Shown here: piece after piece, positions 7,161 through 19,958 of the stretch | Layout of the letters: each line of letters opens with the position of its first letter | Numbering within the stretch: position 1 is the stretch's first letter | Origin: Flavobacteriales bacterium | GTDB taxonomy: Bacteria; Bacteroidota; Bacteroidia; Flavobacteriales_D; Sanyastnellaceae | Assembly (NCBI GenBank): GCA_018402085.1 | Contig: JAGYJM010000002.1 | Span: forward strand, 2,046,001-2,110,000 | Length of the DNA: 64,000 nt | Direction of reading: 5' to 3' | Notes under the pieces: generated by a model | What the model was told of the DNA's origin: nothing | What the model saw: the letters and a program-made list of their open reading frames with translations, nothing else | Databases searched by the model: none | Translations under genes and position numbers: made by a program

Positions 7161-7560
7161 CGAATTAGCGAGGTCGGGAGAAAGGGAGGATCTTCAAGCA
7201 GCGCATCCTTGCGCTGCCGGGTATTTCAAACACCAGCGTAGGGACGCGATTCATCGCGTCCTGCCTAAGGCAAGGTAAATCCTGAAAATGCGCGGACGCG
7301 CGAGGCGCGTCCCTACATGGTACAACATGCACCAATAAGCGCCGCAAGAATGCGGCGCATTAACGAGGTAGGGAGATTCGCAGATCTGCGCAAATATGCC
7401 CTTCCCCATACCACCTACCCCCTATCACCTAACCCGCAAGACCCCTCACCGAAGCTTCATGCGAGCATGAGCTTCGGAGCTCCCCTCATTTGAGGGGAGC
7501 CTTTGAATGAGTTGTTTGACCCGTAGGCAACAAAAAAGCCCCGCAATGCGGGGCTTTTTA
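7161..7560. repeat. Intergenic REP-like palindromes and composite repeat
   Basis: No gene. 7198-7262 carries a GCAGCGCATCC/TTGCGCTGC palindrome and a GGACGCGATTCATCGCGTCC palindrome, the same pair that builds the 83-bp and 100-bp arrays elsewhere. 7295-7315 carries GGACGCGCGAGGCGCGTCC. 7441-7560 is a composite unit (GAAGCTTCATGCGAGCATGA, GGGGAGC inverted repeat, TTTGAATGAGTTGTTTGACC) that ends in a terminator and recurs at 19983-20200. Confidence 0.75.
7532..7559 (-). terminator. Bidirectional-looking terminator downstream of the coiled-coil gene
   Basis: Stem GCCCCGC/GCGGGGC with AAT loop, flanked by AAAAAA on the left and TTTTTA on the right. It is 1 bp beyond the stop of the leftward gene at 7561 and would end it. 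Confidence 0.85.
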
Positions 7561-8689: not shown

Positions 8690-9604
8690 TCAGCGCAATG
8701 CCTGCTTTGCGATATCGGCCAGGTTCTGTAACGCTTCATTTGACCAACCTGCACCTCCGCTGAGTTGATTGACCAATAATATAAGCTGCTTCTCTGAGCG
8801 ATAGACTTCTGCTTCCAGCTTCCGCTTACTGGCGCTGCCAATATGAGCAAGAAGCACTGTGGTTTCCTTCTTAACACCAAAAACCTTTTCTACCTGTTCA
8901 GTCTTTACAATTCCTTTAGCCCCCATAATGACGACCGGGAATGAACGGAAAAAAGGATTGCTTAAAAATTCCTGACGTTCTTCTACCCAGGTTTTCCCTG
9001 CACTATATTTGGAGGGTTTGTGATTGACTTCCGTCATGAAGCAATATTCGAAGAGCGATTGCTTCACTTCATCGGTAGCATTCAGCAAAGTGGATGAATC
9101 TTTCGAATAGATCGCGCCGAGCAGCACCGAACAAACACCCCACGTGTGTCTTTTGCTGATTGTATCGCGCTAGGCATATCGCGGATAGCGAGGATTAAAA
9201 GAAATGCCCATACGCTCCTGATACTCTCCTACAGTCCTTTCCGGATTTTTTACAAACTCTGCCCACTGACTTACATTTGAAACGCTTTCTTTGAAGAGAT
9301 TTTCAGGTACCTGATCAATGTCAAAGCCTTTCTCCTTGCCTATAATGAGGACTTCGGCATTAGGGTTGCCGTAACCTACGTAATAAGGATTCGCAATTTC
9401 CGCAACCGAACGAATAGCGTTCACGCTTACCCGTAAATTCTCCCATGCTTTTTTTTGCTCCGACACTTCAGGTTGGCTTACTAGCGACCTCACATCATCC
9501 AGAAATGTTCTATCGTCGATACCCCGCTCTTGTATGTGTTCATCGTAGCGTAAGGCCAGTCCATTTAATAGTTGGTCGAGCAATTCAATTCTGTCTTGGT
9601 TCAT
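8690..9604 (-). pseudogene. GKE-motif protein gene interrupted by one in-frame TAG
   Basis: Two open segments (9604-9170 and 9169-8690) lie in exactly the same frame, separated only by TAG at 9172-9170. Reading through gives about 304 residues without other damage (RYPRYA, stop, RDTISKRHTWGVCSVLLGAIY). A CAG or GAG codon changed by one base would explain it. The N-terminal half has GYGNPNAEVLIIGKE. The C-terminal half has FFRSFPVVIMGAKG and LSGGAGWSNEAL. The spacing of a beta-strand followed by GKE resembles motif A of uracil-DNA-glycosylase-fold proteins, an inference only. It may be a pseudogene, a sequence error, or read through. Confidence 0.7.
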
Positions 9605-9638: not shown

Positions 9639-10319
9639 CTAAACCAACTCAATAATTTTCTCAAAAATGGTGTTAAGTTTCTTTCTGAAGTTCAAACCAT
9701 TCGGATGCATAGTTTGAAAAGTATGCTCAGGCAATTGCCGGTGTTTGCACCTGTAGAGGTAGTTATCTTCAATAGTATCGTACTCAATCCCTTGAAAGAT
9801 TCGTTGAATATGATGGTCGTAAGACCAGCCGGTGAGAAACAATACTACGTCCGGCTTTACCACTTCGATCTCCTTAATCAGCAAGTCAAAACCAGGCTTG
9901 TTGATATCTTGTAGCTCGCGTGCTGGCGTCGTGCCTCCGCTATCGCACTTGGAAATATTTGTCCATAAGAGACCACTGGGTACACTTTCGCCATTTAGTT
10001 GATTGTGACAACTATAAACAAACCGCCAGAACGGACTATTTCGACCATGGTAATTTTTAGCAAAGGCGAAGTCAGTATAACGACGCCGAAGGTATTCAAC
10101 ACTGAGCTCCTGATCCTGATCCTGATCAAGTGTATTTACCCAGGTGTAGGTTTCTTTCCCAACGTAAAGCACTTTTCGCGGGACTTCTGCATACTCCGGG
10201 TGCACAGTCATCAGTAGCGGATATGACATGTTCTGCCTCAGCTCAATGCTGAGGTCTTTTAAAAATGCGAGATATTCATTGTACAGGGGTGTTAGCTGTT
10301 CATTCATGTTTTCAACCAT
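9639..10319 (-). CDS. GKE-motif protein, possibly UDG-fold
   Basis: 226 residues from ATG 10319 (an alternative ATG is at 10307). The frame is open further right to 10835, but that part is antisense to cas9 and crosses the tracrRNA gene, so it was left out. Contains VLYVGKETYTWV near residue 50, then KPDVVLFLTGWSYDHHI and TMHPNGLNF near the end. The layout strand-GKE, strand-LTG, and a late His-Pro motif is compatible with the uracil-DNA glycosylase-like fold, as in the neighbour to the left. Function unknown. It lies directly downstream of the tracrRNA terminator, so it needs its own promoter. Confidence 0.65.
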   Translation of the reverse strand: MVENMNEQLTPLYNEYLAFLKDLSIELRQNMSYPLLMTVHPEYAEVPRKVLYVGKETYTWVNTLDQDQDQELSVEYLRRRYTDFAFAKNYHGRNSPFWRFVYSCHNQLNGESVPSGLLWTNISKCDSGGTTPARELQDINKPGFDLLIKEIEVVKPDVVLFLTGWSYDHHIQRIFQGIEYDTIEDNYLYRCKHRQLPEHTFQTMHPNGLNFRKKLNTIFEKIIELV

Positions 10320-10394
10320 AGCAATTGATCGTTTGAGTACGCGGATTTTGGTGATGTTCTGAGTTGAGGTTGTAAGCTGGCTGCTGCCTGGGTG

Positions 10395-10422
10395 AAAATA
10401 AAAAAGCGACCCGAGGGCCGCT
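10395..10422 (-). terminator. Terminator of tracrRNA
   Basis: Minus-strand stem AGCGGCCC / GGGTCGCT with a TC loop, followed by TTTTTTATTTT. Ends the tracrRNA before the leftward gene starting at 10319. Confidence 0.85.
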
Positions 10423-10473
10423 TTGAATGTTTTCACAACGGAATAATCCTTATTGTGATTAACTTTAGATCGT
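10395..10473 (-). ncRNA. tracrRNA of the type II-C CRISPR-Cas system
   Basis: Minus-strand sequence 10472-10452 reads ACGATCTAAAGTTAATCACAA, which is the anti-repeat: against the CRISPR repeat it differs by one missing base and two C-to-T changes that leave G-U pairs. It continues with AAGGATTATTCCGTTGTGAAAAC, the core stem-loop typical of Bacteroidota II-C tracrRNAs, and ends in a terminator hairpin AGCGGCCC/GGGTCGCT with a T-run at 10405-10395. It is transcribed away from cas9. The 5' end is estimated from the promoter. The length is close to 80 nt. Confidence 0.88.
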
Positions 10474-10477
10474 GAAC

Positions 10478-10508
10478 CAAAGATAACTATTCTCTCAATG
10501 GCTACAAA
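10478..10508 (-). promoter_or_regulatory. Promoter of tracrRNA
   Basis: On the minus strand TTTG (10508-10505), 19 bp, then TATCTTTG (10485-10478) matches the Bacteroidota consensus TTTG-N19-TAnnTTTG exactly. Transcription should start about 5-8 bp further, at 10473-10470, at the beginning of the anti-repeat. The -33 box lies inside the first codons of cas9. Confidence 0.85.
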
Positions 10509-13500
10509 AAAAATACTTGGTCTTGACCTTGGCGTCGCTTCGATAGGCTGGGCCTTCATCAAAGAATCTTCAGACAACAATCCGGAAATTGTCGATATGG
10601 GTGTTCGGGTAATCCCGGCAACAAAAGACGAGACAAGCGTCTTCAGGGAGTTTGAAAAAGGAAACCCGGCGAGCTTTTCAAAGGAACGGACCACTAAACG
10701 TGGCATCAGGCGCAACAACTTCAGGTGGAAACTAAGGCGAGAGCGTCTGGTCAAGCTCCTCAAAGAACAAGGCATGTATGATGAAACACTCGTACAAACC
10801 GAACACCCGCTCGCTATCTGGGCGCTGAGAGCCAAAGCTGCAGAAGAACAGATCAGTCTGACCGAACTCGGCCGGGTGCTTTTGCATATGAATCATAAAC
10901 GCGGCTTTAAAAGCAATCGCAAGGCAGGCACGGTTGAAGATGAAGCTACTGACTTTAAGCAGGCACTATCAAGCAATATGCAAGTGCTCAAAGTGCGCAA
11001 ACAAACCATTGGCCAGTACCTATACGATGAGCTGAAAAAAGACCCTGCGTTCACCAGCAAAGGCATCACGTTTGCCCGTAAGGGTCATCTTGAAGAGTTT
11101 GAAGCCATTTGGGAAACTCAGAGCACACACCATAAGGAACTAAACGACGAACTTAAGGTCAAGATTGGTGAGCAAACCCTCTTCTACCAGCGCCCATTAA
11201 AAAGCGCCAAACACCTGCTGAGTAATTGCCAGTTCGAAAAAGGACACAAGGTCATTGCGCGTAGTTCACCCATCTTTCAATATTTCAGAAGCTTCGAGCA
11301 ACTCGTGAACCTGCGCTTCAAAACAAGCCTTAACCATGAACGAGTGCTCCACAACGACGAACTGAGTCTCCTTCTGCAACACCTTACCGTACCGAATCTG
11401 GACGGTTCTAAACTCGATGCAAAACATGACCTCACCCGAAGCTCAGATAAGAAAACTAATCAAGGGCCTGGGAAAGGAGTTCATTTCAAGCCATAAAAAA
11501 ATCGAAGGATGCAGAACCCTCAGAGCAATACACCTTGCCTTGGAGAGCAATGGGGTAGATTCAGAATCGTGGATCGCCTTTGATCCGCTCGCTATGAAAA
11601 AACCCGACGAACAGAAATCTTACCAGTTGTGGCATGCGCCTGCGTGGCGGTATCGAAGACCCGGGCGACCTGAAAAAGACCCTTTGCGAGCGTTTCGGTT
11701 TCGATCTGCCCACCGCCAGAAAGCCTGATGAACATAGCACTCGAACCCGACTATGGTTCTCTTTCGTCAAGAGCCATTCGCAAGATCATCAAAGAGTTGC
11801 AGAAGTTTCCGGAAAATGCAACCCACGCCGCAATTGCCGCCGGGTATAAGCAACGCGGCTCTGAAACACTGGATGAGAAGACTTCGCGAGAACTGCTCGA
11901 AAAGCTCGAGCCCCTGAAAAAAGGTACGCTCAGAAACCCTGTAGTCGAGAAAGTGCTCAACCAACTGATCACCCTTGTGAACGAATTGATTGCATCCGAT
12001 GAGTTTGGCAGGCCGGATGAAATTCGTATTGAATTGGCTCGCGATCTCAAGAGCGGCGCCAAAGAGCGCAAACGCAAAGAGGTAGCCATCAATAAAGCTC
12101 GAAAAGAGAATGAGGCCATTCGTGACATACTCACGAATGAATTTGGCATTAAACGCCCCAGTCGCAGGGATGTATTTCGCTATCGCTGCTGGGTGGAGCA
12201 AAAGCACCAATGCCTTTACACGGGTGAACCACTGCCACAAGATGCCATCATTAATGGCGAAGAGTATGACCTCGACCATATTATTCCACGCTCGCGTATG
12301 TTCAATGATTCGTTCGCCAATCTTGTCTTGGTTAAGCGCAGTGCCAATCAAGAAAAAGACAACCAAACAGCTCATGATTATATGGCGGGGAAAGGGAAAG
12401 AAGCCCTTGACACCTTTCTCGTGCGAGTGAAAAGCCTTTACGACGAAGGTAGCAGGCGAAAAGCAGGGCAGAACTTAAAGCCGGTATCGGCGCGAAGAAA
12501 GCACTTCCCACTGATGAAAGGGAAAGACATACCTCAAGACTTTATTGAACGTCAGCTGCGCGAGAGTCAGTACATCGTAAAGGAGGCGATGCACCTTTTG
12601 CGGCAAGTTTCTCGGGAGGTTACAACCCAACCAACGCAGGAGACGACTTGCGTCACCACGGGGACTTACTGATCTGCTCAAGGAAATCCAGCTACCGAAG
12701 TACCGTGAGTGGGGCCAGACTGAAACCGTTGATGGTGAAGAGCGCATCAAAGACTGGTCGAAAAGGCTCGACCACCGACACCATGCCATTGATGCATTGG
12801 TGGTAGCATGCACTACCAGAAGCTTCATTCAACGACTCAATACGCTGAATGCCTTTTATGACGATGACGACGCCACTGTGCGCTTGAGTATCAGAAACAT
12901 TGAAGACCCGTGGGTAGGGTTCAGAAAAGATGCCAAAGCCGCCACCGAGGCCATTCTTGTAAGCTTTCGGAACCGGCGCAGGGTTGGCAACCCGCGGTAA
13001 CCATCAAACCCACTCTGGCAACCGGCGTGAGGAATCCACTGAACAATCTGTACTCGTTCCTCGAGATTCTTTCCACCTCGAAACCGTCTATGGCGAGCGT
13101 TTCGTTGATCGTGGAAGTACTGTTAAAGTGAACAAAAGGCTAACCCCTGAAATTGCAGACCGCATTATCAATAAAAAGGAGCGTGCAGCAATAATGGAAC
13201 GTTTGCACCGCTTTGACAATGACCCTGAAGCAGCTTTCAAAAACGTCAAAAAAGACCCGATCTATCTAAATGAGGCACGCCTTGATGAGGTGAGCGTGTA
13301 CGACCGCATTTTCGTCTATCGTCAGGCACTCAATGACCAGTTCAAGAAAACAGACGCCATTGTAGACCCTGAAATCAGAAAGATTGTTGAGAACCACCTC
13401 GCAGCGAATAATAACGACCCTAAGAAGGCCTTTGGCGACCTGAAGAACAACCCTGTGTGGTACAACAAGGAAAAGGGGCTTCAGATCAAGGCAGTCAATG

Positions 13501-13982
13501 TCCAGCAAAAGGCAGACGAACTGCACCCCGTTCGGGTCAAAGCAAATGGCCAACCCAAAGATTTCGTATTTACCCGAAACAACCACCATATCGCCTTCTT
13601 CAAAGACGAAAGCGGCAAGATCTATGATGAGGTAATCACCTTCTGGGATGCCTTTGAAAGAAAGAAACAAGGCTTGAGTGAATTCCCTGAAACATCATCT
13701 AAGGGCGACCCTAAAACTCTTTCACCTCAAGTGATCAATGACTTGGTACCACTGACATGACGCCCGAAGAAGCAGATGTTGAATCTACTGGAAGGCAGGG
13801 CGAAGGTCTCTGAACATCTTTTCAGGGTGCAAAAACTAACGTCAGGAGACGTATTCTTCAGACACCATTTGGAGACTACGATTGATCAACAACAGGCTGT
13901 AATTCGAATTACCAGTCCGAAAATGATGATCGAAAGGGTTACGCCAATCCAGCACGACATCCTGGGCCGCATCATTGGATGA
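10498..13982 (+). pseudogene. cas9: Cas9, type II-C, broken by several frameshifts
   Basis: Fragments in all three frames add up to one Cas9 of about 1160 residues. In order: RuvC-I GLDLGVASIGWA (residues 7-18); Arg-rich bridge helix (TTKRGIRRNNFRWKLRRERL); REC lobe; RuvC-II RIELARDLK; HNH YDLDHIIPRSRMFNDSFANL; RuvC-III HRHHAIDALVVA; a C-terminal PAM-interacting part ending EHLFRVQKLTSGDVFFRHH. Frame changes are needed near 11410-11450, 11625-11645, 11715-11728, 12620-12660 (two), 12975-12990 and 13745-13775 (two; an in-frame TGA lies at 13758). All catalytic motifs survive. Either recent decay or locally poor sequence. As written, no full-length nuclease could be made. The gene overlaps cas1 by ATGA. 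Confidence 0.9.
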
Positions 13983-14869
13983 AACGCACGGTTGCCATAC
14001 AAAATCCCTGTCGCTTAAATGTGGAGCGCGACCAACTTGTGATTCACAAAGAAGGCGTCAAAGTCGGACAGGTGCCGCTTGAAGACCTGGGTATAATTGT
14101 GTTGGAACACCGGCAAATAACCCTCACCCAGGCCGTATTCAGCCGGGCACTCGACCACAATGTTGCCATTGTCACCTGTTCCGAAAACCATTACCCGACC
14201 GGACTCCTGCTGAACCTCGATGGTCACCACCTGCAACGGCGCACTTTTGAGTACCAACTGACCGCTTCCCTTCCGCTGATGAAGCAACTCTGGCAACAGG
14301 TTATTCGGCAAAAGCTGCGCAATCAGGCATCGGTGCTTTCGGCATTCAGTAAACCGGAGAAGTACATCTCTGAGCTTGCTACCAAAGTTAAGAGCGGCGA
14401 CAGCGGCAATGCGGAAGCGATGGCCGCAGCCCACTACTGGCGCCACTCTGTTTGACGCACCGATCATCCGGGAACGGGTGGTGCCCCTCCCAATAATTAC
14501 CTGAACTACGGTTATGCAATCTTAAGAGCAATGACCGCAAGGGCACTGGTGGGCGCAGGCCTTCTCCCCACATGGGGCATCCACCACCGCAACCAATACA
14601 ACGCCTACTGCCTTGCAGATGATATTATGGAGCCCTACAGACCCATGGTTGATTTTCACGTGCGTTCCTCCTTCTGGCCGGATCCGCCTGAAGAGCTGAG
14701 TACTGAAGAGAAAAAAGTCTTTTGGTCAATGGCTACCTGGGACTGTCAAACGGCAGTCGGTGTGCGGCCACTTCAACAAGCCCTTTCAGAAACGGCATCA
14801 TCTTTGCAACAGTGCTTCATGAAAAAACGCGAAAAAATCGTCTTGCCCGATGTCATCACTTCGCTATGA
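13979..14869 (+). pseudogene. cas1: Cas1 with two compensating frameshifts
   Basis: Spacer-integration nuclease of the type II adaptation complex. The frame starts at ATG 13979 (overlapping the cas9 TGA) and meets TGA at 14453. Past it, a +1 frame reads LFDAPIIRER, and from about 14485 the original frame resumes with GGAPPNNYLNYGYAILRAM to the stop at 14867. So there are two indels, near 14445 and 14480, that cancel. Metal-binding residues are present: E in NAEAMAAAHYW, H in LPTWGIHHRNQYNAYCLADD, and D/E in DIMEPYRPMVD. Restored length is about 296 residues, normal for the family. Confidence 0.9.
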
Positions 14870-15189
14870 AGCTTACCGCAACATGTGGCTCTTTGTATTT
14901 TATGACTTACCGACCACGACCAAGAAGGAACAAACGGCCTATCGCATCCTTCCGTGAGAGGATCATGGCTGATGGGTTTACCATGTTCCAGTTCAGCATT
15001 TACCTGCGGCATACCCCCAGCCGGGAAAATGCCGAAGTGCATATCAAACGGGTGAAATCCATTTTGCCCGATATGGGTAGGGTCTGGTATATGAAAGTGA
15101 CCGATAAACAATCTGAGCAAATGATTCTCGTTCGAAGCCGGCACCCAATGCCGCTACCCGACACCCTCAACAGCTCTGAGTTGTTCTGA
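14850..15189 (+). pseudogene. cas2: Cas2 with one frameshift
   Basis: Starts at ATG 14850, 20 bp inside the end of cas1: MSSLRYEAYRNMWLFVFYDLPTTTKKE, with the beta-strand aspartate in FYDLP. Stops at 14956 in that frame. A shift near 14941-14950 gives SFRERIMADGFTMFQFSIYLRH, continuing to TGA 15187 (HPMPLPDTLNSSELF). Restored length is about 113 residues, typical of II-C Cas2. Partner of Cas1 in spacer acquisition. Together with the cas1 and cas9 lesions, it makes the adaptation module non-functional as written. Confidence 0.88.
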
Positions 15190-19368: not shown

Positions 19369-19438
19369 TCCGCGTCAGGCAAGGGTTTTGCTATTTTTGG
19401 GAAACCGGGAAACTGGGAAACCGGGAAAGTTCTGAAAT

Positions 19439-19958
19439 CAGCGCATACTTGCGCTGCCTGGTATTCTCAAACACCAACGTAGGGACGCGATTCATCGCGT
19501 CCGCCGAATCACGTTCATTCAGCAGCGCATCCTTGCGCTGCCGGGTATTTCAAACACCAACGTAGGGACGCGATTCATCGCGTCCGCCGAATCACGTTCA
19601 TTCAGCAGCGCATCCTTGCGCTGCCGGGTATTTCAAACACCAACGTAGGGACGCGATTCATCGCGTCCGCCGAATCACGTTCATTCAGCAGCGCATCCTT
19701 GCGCTGCCGGGTATTTCAAACACCAACGTAGGGACGCGATTCATCGCGTCCGCCGAATCACGTTCATTCAGCAGCGCATCCTTGCGCTGCCGGGTATTTC
19801 AAACACCAACGTAGGGACGCGATTCATCGCGTCCGCCGAATCACGTTCATTCAGCAGCGCATCCTTGCGCTGCCGGGTATTTCAAACACCAACGTAGGGA
19901 CGCGATTCATCGCGTCCGCCGAATCACGTTCATTCAGCAGCGCATCCTTGCGCTGCCC
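19439..19958. repeat. 83-bp tandem repeat, six units plus a partial
   Basis: Units start at 19439, 19523, 19606, 19689, 19772, 19855 and 19938 (partial). Each contains two palindromes: AGCGCATCCTTGCGCT and GGACGCGATTCATCGCGTCC. All but the first unit are essentially identical, which points to recent amplification. No reading frame is supported. Confidence 0.95.

Follow-up and report, generated by a model that had tools for sequence, protein, structure and literature searches.

A predicted tracrRNA gene of a Bacteroidota type II-C CRISPR-Cas9 locus, with a putative promoter overlapping the start of cas9

Among the closest described systems, the Flavobacterium enzyme Fp2Cas9 is active in vitro, cleaving with its own tracrRNA:crRNA pair (PMC12609912). 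The arrays of Flavobacterium II-C systems are transcribed from within their repeats toward the variable end, starting from a TTG box (PMC8092290, PMC10309648), and repeats of 36 nt are known from F. columnare (PMC8092290). The transcription of tracrRNA in Bacteroidota II-C systems is given as unresolved (PMC10309648), and the tracrRNA of PMC8092290 is described there as not validated. A literature search for tracrRNA promoters in Bacteroidota returned nothing beyond PMC10309648.

The locus analyzed here lies in a 64-kb stretch of a Flavobacteriales genome, referred to as the window. Positions 10394-10508 of its minus strand very probably hold the tracrRNA gene of a Bacteroidota type II-C CRISPR-Cas9 locus, with a predicted RNA of about 80 nt. 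The gene is a standard member of a known family and is divergent from the adjacent cas9, an arrangement shared by most relatives. The features of the locus are as follows.

10394 to 10474, minus strand: tracrRNA, from covariance model and fold; predicted to start at about 10470-10474 and to end within the T run below 10403
10452 to 10474, minus strand: anti-repeat, forming a 22-bp duplex with the crRNA-sense repeat
10434 to 10451, minus strand: conserved core AAGGATTATTCCGTTGTG, agreeing with the consensus of 47 relatives
10403 to 10424, minus strand: terminator hairpin (9-bp stem, 4-nt loop) followed by a T run, at the same place in relatives
10478 to 10485, minus strand: putative -7 box TATCTTTG, 34 nt upstream of the AAGG core
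10505 to 10508, minus strand: putative -33 box TTTG, by exact sequence; complement of cas9 codons 3-4 (ACA AAA)
10498 to 13976, plus strand: cas9 (type II-C) with broken frame; profile of 63 Cas9 proteins matching in pieces and three frames, tblastn with relatives, TIGR01865
13979 to 14869, plus strand: cas1, with a frame break somewhere from about 14455 to 14530; TIGR03639 (cas1_NMENI) on both pieces
14863 to 15189, plus strand: cas2, an open reading frame with a tentative start; TIGR01573 and PF09827
15289 to 18797, crRNA sense minus: CRISPR array of 53 repeats of 36 nt, from repeat scans and anti-repeat pairing

The type II-C gene set is present with cas9 (TIGR01865), cas1 (TIGR03639), cas2 (TIGR01573) and the array, without csn2 or cas4, and since the three genes fill the stretch from 10498 up to the array, there is no room for a further cas gene there. 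The cas9 as assembled does not have the intact effector reading frame of a type II-C system, for which sequence error is a possible cause. In nearly all relatives where a tracrRNA was found, it likewise lies upstream of cas9 and divergent from it. The minus-strand neighbor at 9642-10319 bears a weak likeness to uracil-DNA glycosylase (PF03167, slightly below the cut-off), and 8690-9604 on the same strand can be read as a single coding stretch with an in-frame stop. Tandem 83-bp units lie to the right of the array at 19438-19958, with one related copy to its left at 7197-7261; part of this unit has about 66 matches across the genome and is a dispersed repeat.

Read 5' to 3' on the minus strand, the elements follow in the order TTTG, 19 nt, TATCTTTG, anti-repeat, AAGGATTATTCCGTTGTG, AAAACATTC, terminator hairpin, and T run. 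The original prediction had named an anti-repeat, a core, a terminator hairpin, and a promoter on this strand, and a check of the coordinates found all of them in place. These elements, their order, their homology, and their conserved spacing can be read directly from the sequence.

The covariance model, which captures both sequence and structure, used 47 tracrRNA genes from other Bacteroidota as input, with the window left out. It gave a single match in the window at 10398-10478 on the minus strand, with 79 bits and an E value of 6e-15, and no second tracrRNA was detected when the 3.78 Mb genome was searched with it. The combined signal of score, E value, and sole match in the genome is decisive for the prediction of a tracrRNA. 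The fold of the RNA was far more stable than that of shuffles (z -4.9). An Rfam scan gave no match to a tracrRNA family. The relatives were partly collected by their core sequence, so that the invariance of AAGG..TTATTCC among them is partly a matter of selection; GTTGTGAAAACAT and the terminator were not used for selection.

Co-folding of the anti-repeat with the repeat of its own locus in crRNA sense, which the original prediction had proposed as a check, gave 22 pairs with one bulged C and three G-U pairs at -27.5 kcal/mol. This duplex was more stable than those of shuffled anti-repeats (mean -9.3 kcal/mol, best of 2000 -20.8) and than those of the anti-repeat with the repeats of 50 other loci (mean -13.6 kcal/mol, best -22.0). 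The single bulge was predicted correctly, but two G-U pairs had been counted instead of three, a number that includes the terminal pair. A GATC block that is unusual in the repeat here is mirrored in the anti-repeat, as expected of a cognate pair. Duplex energy by itself was dropped as proof of an anti-repeat, as values of up to -27.3 kcal/mol occur at unrelated sites in the window. Edit distance taken alone ranks the anti-repeat first in the window by a narrow margin, with 4 edits versus 5 for the next site.

Upstream of the anti-repeat, TTTGTAGCCATTGAGAGAATAGTTATCTTTG at 10508-10478 on the minus strand fits exactly the housekeeping promoter pattern of Bacteroidota, defined as a -7 TAnnTTTG with a -33 TTTG or TTG at about 19-21 nt. 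A scan for the sigma-70 pattern TTGACA/TATAAT gave no match. While TTTG-N19-TATCTTTG is the only perfect match to TTTG-N18-21-TAnnTTTG in the 64-kb window, 0.75 matches were expected from shuffles, so that the pattern alone proves little. Of 62 relatives, 27 have a perfect TAnnTTTG at 33-37 nt upstream of the core, where 300 simulations gave a null mean of 0.4 and a maximum of 3, and 53 have one fitting at 5/6 positions or better (null 6.4, maximum 16), with a -33 TTTG or TTG at a spacing of 18-21 nt in 22 of 53 (null about 8%). As the relatives are not mutually independent, there are fewer independent events than these counts suggest. In a genome of the same family (G005), the core lies 64 nt from cas9 and TATATTCG stands 35 nt upstream of the core. 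The match in the window could still be coincidental, with the tracrRNA transcribed by read-through or from another promoter, and the chance expectation as well as the modest share of relatives with a recognizable -33 box would agree with this. Yet the match has the right strand and distance, and the perfect -7 box recurs at the same offset in relatives far beyond the null, so that coincidence appears very improbable. The tracrRNA promoter that had been proposed is credible through its position and its conservation in relatives: it has the -33/-7 boxes of Bacteroidota and keeps a conserved distance, with the -7 box placed as in relatives.

The start codon of cas9 (ATG at 10498) is divergent from the core and 47 nt away. 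Among 58 relatives, the distance from core to cas9 was at most 57 nt in 7, 58-75 nt in 18, 76-180 nt in 30, and more in 3, with a range of 47-271 nt plus one at 1143 nt. At distances of up to 57 nt the -33 position falls within cas9 codons, and judged from these spacings the overlap of a putative tracrRNA promoter with cas9 codons recurs in a minority of loci, those at the lower end of the distance range. The exact coordinates bear out the original prediction that the -33 box lies within cas9 codons 3-4. Its wider claim that the start regions of the two transcripts overlap head to head was right in that the tracrRNA promoter lies over the start of cas9; no support was found for an overlapping start region of cas9 transcription, the tracrRNA promoter being the only one identifiable. 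The 350 nt upstream of cas9 in the window contain no perfect plus-strand TAnnTTTG, and among the close-spaced relatives few have one upstream of cas9. TAACTTTA at 10460-10467 was considered as a plus-strand -7 box of cas9 and rejected, as it fits at 5/6 positions without a -33 box. Transcription of cas9 in the close-spaced loci may begin further upstream and run antisense through the tracrRNA gene. The wide gaps between tracrRNA and cas9 in Flavobacteria and relatives often contain a palindrome-like motif, ACGGTTTTCCGTAA and variants (L033, L035, L037, L044, L046, L067, L075, L083, L087, and L108), possibly an operator or the trace of a mobile element.

That the tracrRNA fixes the direction of the array had been foreseen, and the anti-repeat pairing indeed gives the crRNA sense as minus (GTTGTGATTGGCTTTC...). 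Of 50 distinct repeats from Bacteroidota II-C loci (L031-L110), 21 had a perfect TAnnTTTG at a crRNA-sense offset of 22-27, compared to 1% in shuffles, and a further 18 carried the motif at 5/6. The motif follows the TTG at the head of the crRNA-sense repeat by about 18-23 nt, and together the two make a complete candidate promoter borne by the repeat. The repeat of the window reads TTG-N18-TATTTTAG in crRNA sense, with 5/6 of the -7 box; it is 36 nt long, and the repeats of nearly all relatives found are 46-47 nt.

With these elements, a housekeeping promoter (-33 TTTG, -7 TATCTTTG) with its upstream box in the first cas9 codons would start the RNA at about 10470-10474. The 5' part of the tracrRNA would pair with the minus-sense CRISPR repeat, Cas9 would hold the core and nexus hairpins of the tracrRNA, and the RNA would end at the hairpin and T-run terminator, ahead of the minus-strand gene at 10319-9642. 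Minus-strand transcription, probably from a promoter within every repeat, would give the crRNAs. Transcription of the tracrRNA, processing of the duplex, and binding by Cas9 are what we infer from the sequence. One and the same housekeeping signature (TTG/TTTG, about 20 nt, TAnnTTTG) may be shared by the tracrRNA gene and all repeats of Bacteroidota II-C systems. In the minority of loci, this one among them, that would have the tracrRNA promoter over the start of cas9, RNA polymerase on one could then exclude polymerase on the other, which would couple the levels of tracrRNA and Cas9. As a whole, this proposal is speculative and rather unlikely to hold. While the finding in the single window is ordinary, the shared TAnnTTTG signature at tracrRNA genes and within repeats is the part worth keeping. 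With the -7 box at a fixed distance upstream of the core in most of the 62 loci and also present in 21 of the 50 distinct repeats, it would provide a simple, testable rule for tracrRNA and crRNA starts and their annotation.

As assembled, cas9, cas1, and the array carry many small insertions and deletions, a point absent from the original prediction. With the 63-member profile and tblastn with relatives, cas9 showed four frame changes or more as well as an in-frame stop (13758-13760). The profile matched in frame 0 at 10507-11391, weakly in frame 1 at about 11495-11635, in frame 0 at 11722-12630, in frame 1 at 12659-12985, and in frame 2 at 13023-13976, which contains the stop. The match covers most of the length of Cas9, with all domains and the catalytic motifs GLDLG, DHIIP, and HHAIDAL kept. 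In the array, 16 of 53 repeats are altered, 15 of them by indels, with 39 indel nt and 17 substitutions in total, compared to 7 differing repeats among 1203 interior repeats in 45 arrays of relatives. The spacers of the window range from 23 to 41 nt with a mode of 30, and about half are not 30 nt long. Genome quality was judged from 20-kb samples, and as ORF lengths were normal in 27 other sampled stretches of the genome, the damage is local. With cas9, cas1, and the array full of indels, the function of the system in this genome is uncertain.

Two readings of this damage were weighed. In one, the locus has truly decayed, with pseudogenes of cas9 and cas1 and an eroding array, and the intact tracrRNA gene is a functionless relic. 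The frame changes and stop in cas9, the break in cas1, the excess of mutated repeats over relatives, and the confinement of the damage to this locus are consistent with it, as is the search of the genome for a second Cas9, which gave just one weak match to the Cas9 family (17.8 bits). With one lesion per about 700-900 nt in cas9, an RNA of 80 nt would be expected to stay intact by chance, and because so short a stretch usually escapes at that density, its intactness is no sign of selection. In ordinary sequence decay, substitutions dominate. The array lesions are mostly indels, unlike such decay, and the domains and catalytic motifs of cas9 are kept; we consider true decay a serious contender, though somewhat short of an even chance. 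In the other reading, the lesions stem from consensus errors where the sequence is locally poor, for example from long reads or gap filling, and the living strain has an intact and working II-C system with its tracrRNA. The dominance of indels with several changes per repeat, the irregular spacers (23-41 instead of 30), and the otherwise well-preserved cas9 point this way. However, the 83-bp tandem copies just past the array (19467-19957) do not differ from one another and the remaining genome looks clean, so that the errors would need to be confined to about 11.4-18.1 kb; consensus error has, in our estimate, about an even chance of being correct. The system is thus either broken or badly sequenced here, the dominance of indels hinting at consensus error and the local confinement at real decay. 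With the frames of cas9 and cas1 broken and so many repeats mutated, the predicted tracrRNA may have no partner in this strain.

Compared to the II-C systems of Flavobacterium (F. columnare, PMC8092290; F. psychrophilum Fp2Cas9, PMC10309648, PMC12609912), the locus likewise has its tracrRNA beside cas9 and the order cas9-cas1-cas2-array. A TTG box in each repeat and crRNAs probably transcribed within the array are further likenesses, and the repeat length of 36 bp is shared with F. columnare. The window differs in its interrupted cas9, cas1, and array, and a promoter is proposed for its tracrRNA, the transcription of which was not resolved or not validated in the Flavobacterium papers. In the II-C system of Riemerella anatipestifer (PMC5006608; L072), the anti-repeat of the putative tracrRNA is likewise upstream of cas9. 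While no repeat promoter was found in PMC5006608, the repeat of L072 contains TATCTTTG 20 nt after TTG in this analysis. In the II-C system of Neisseria meningitidis, as far as it is cited in PMC5006608 and PMC8092290, crRNAs are likewise started inside the repeats, but from other promoter boxes, whereas the window has the -33/-7 boxes of Bacteroidota.
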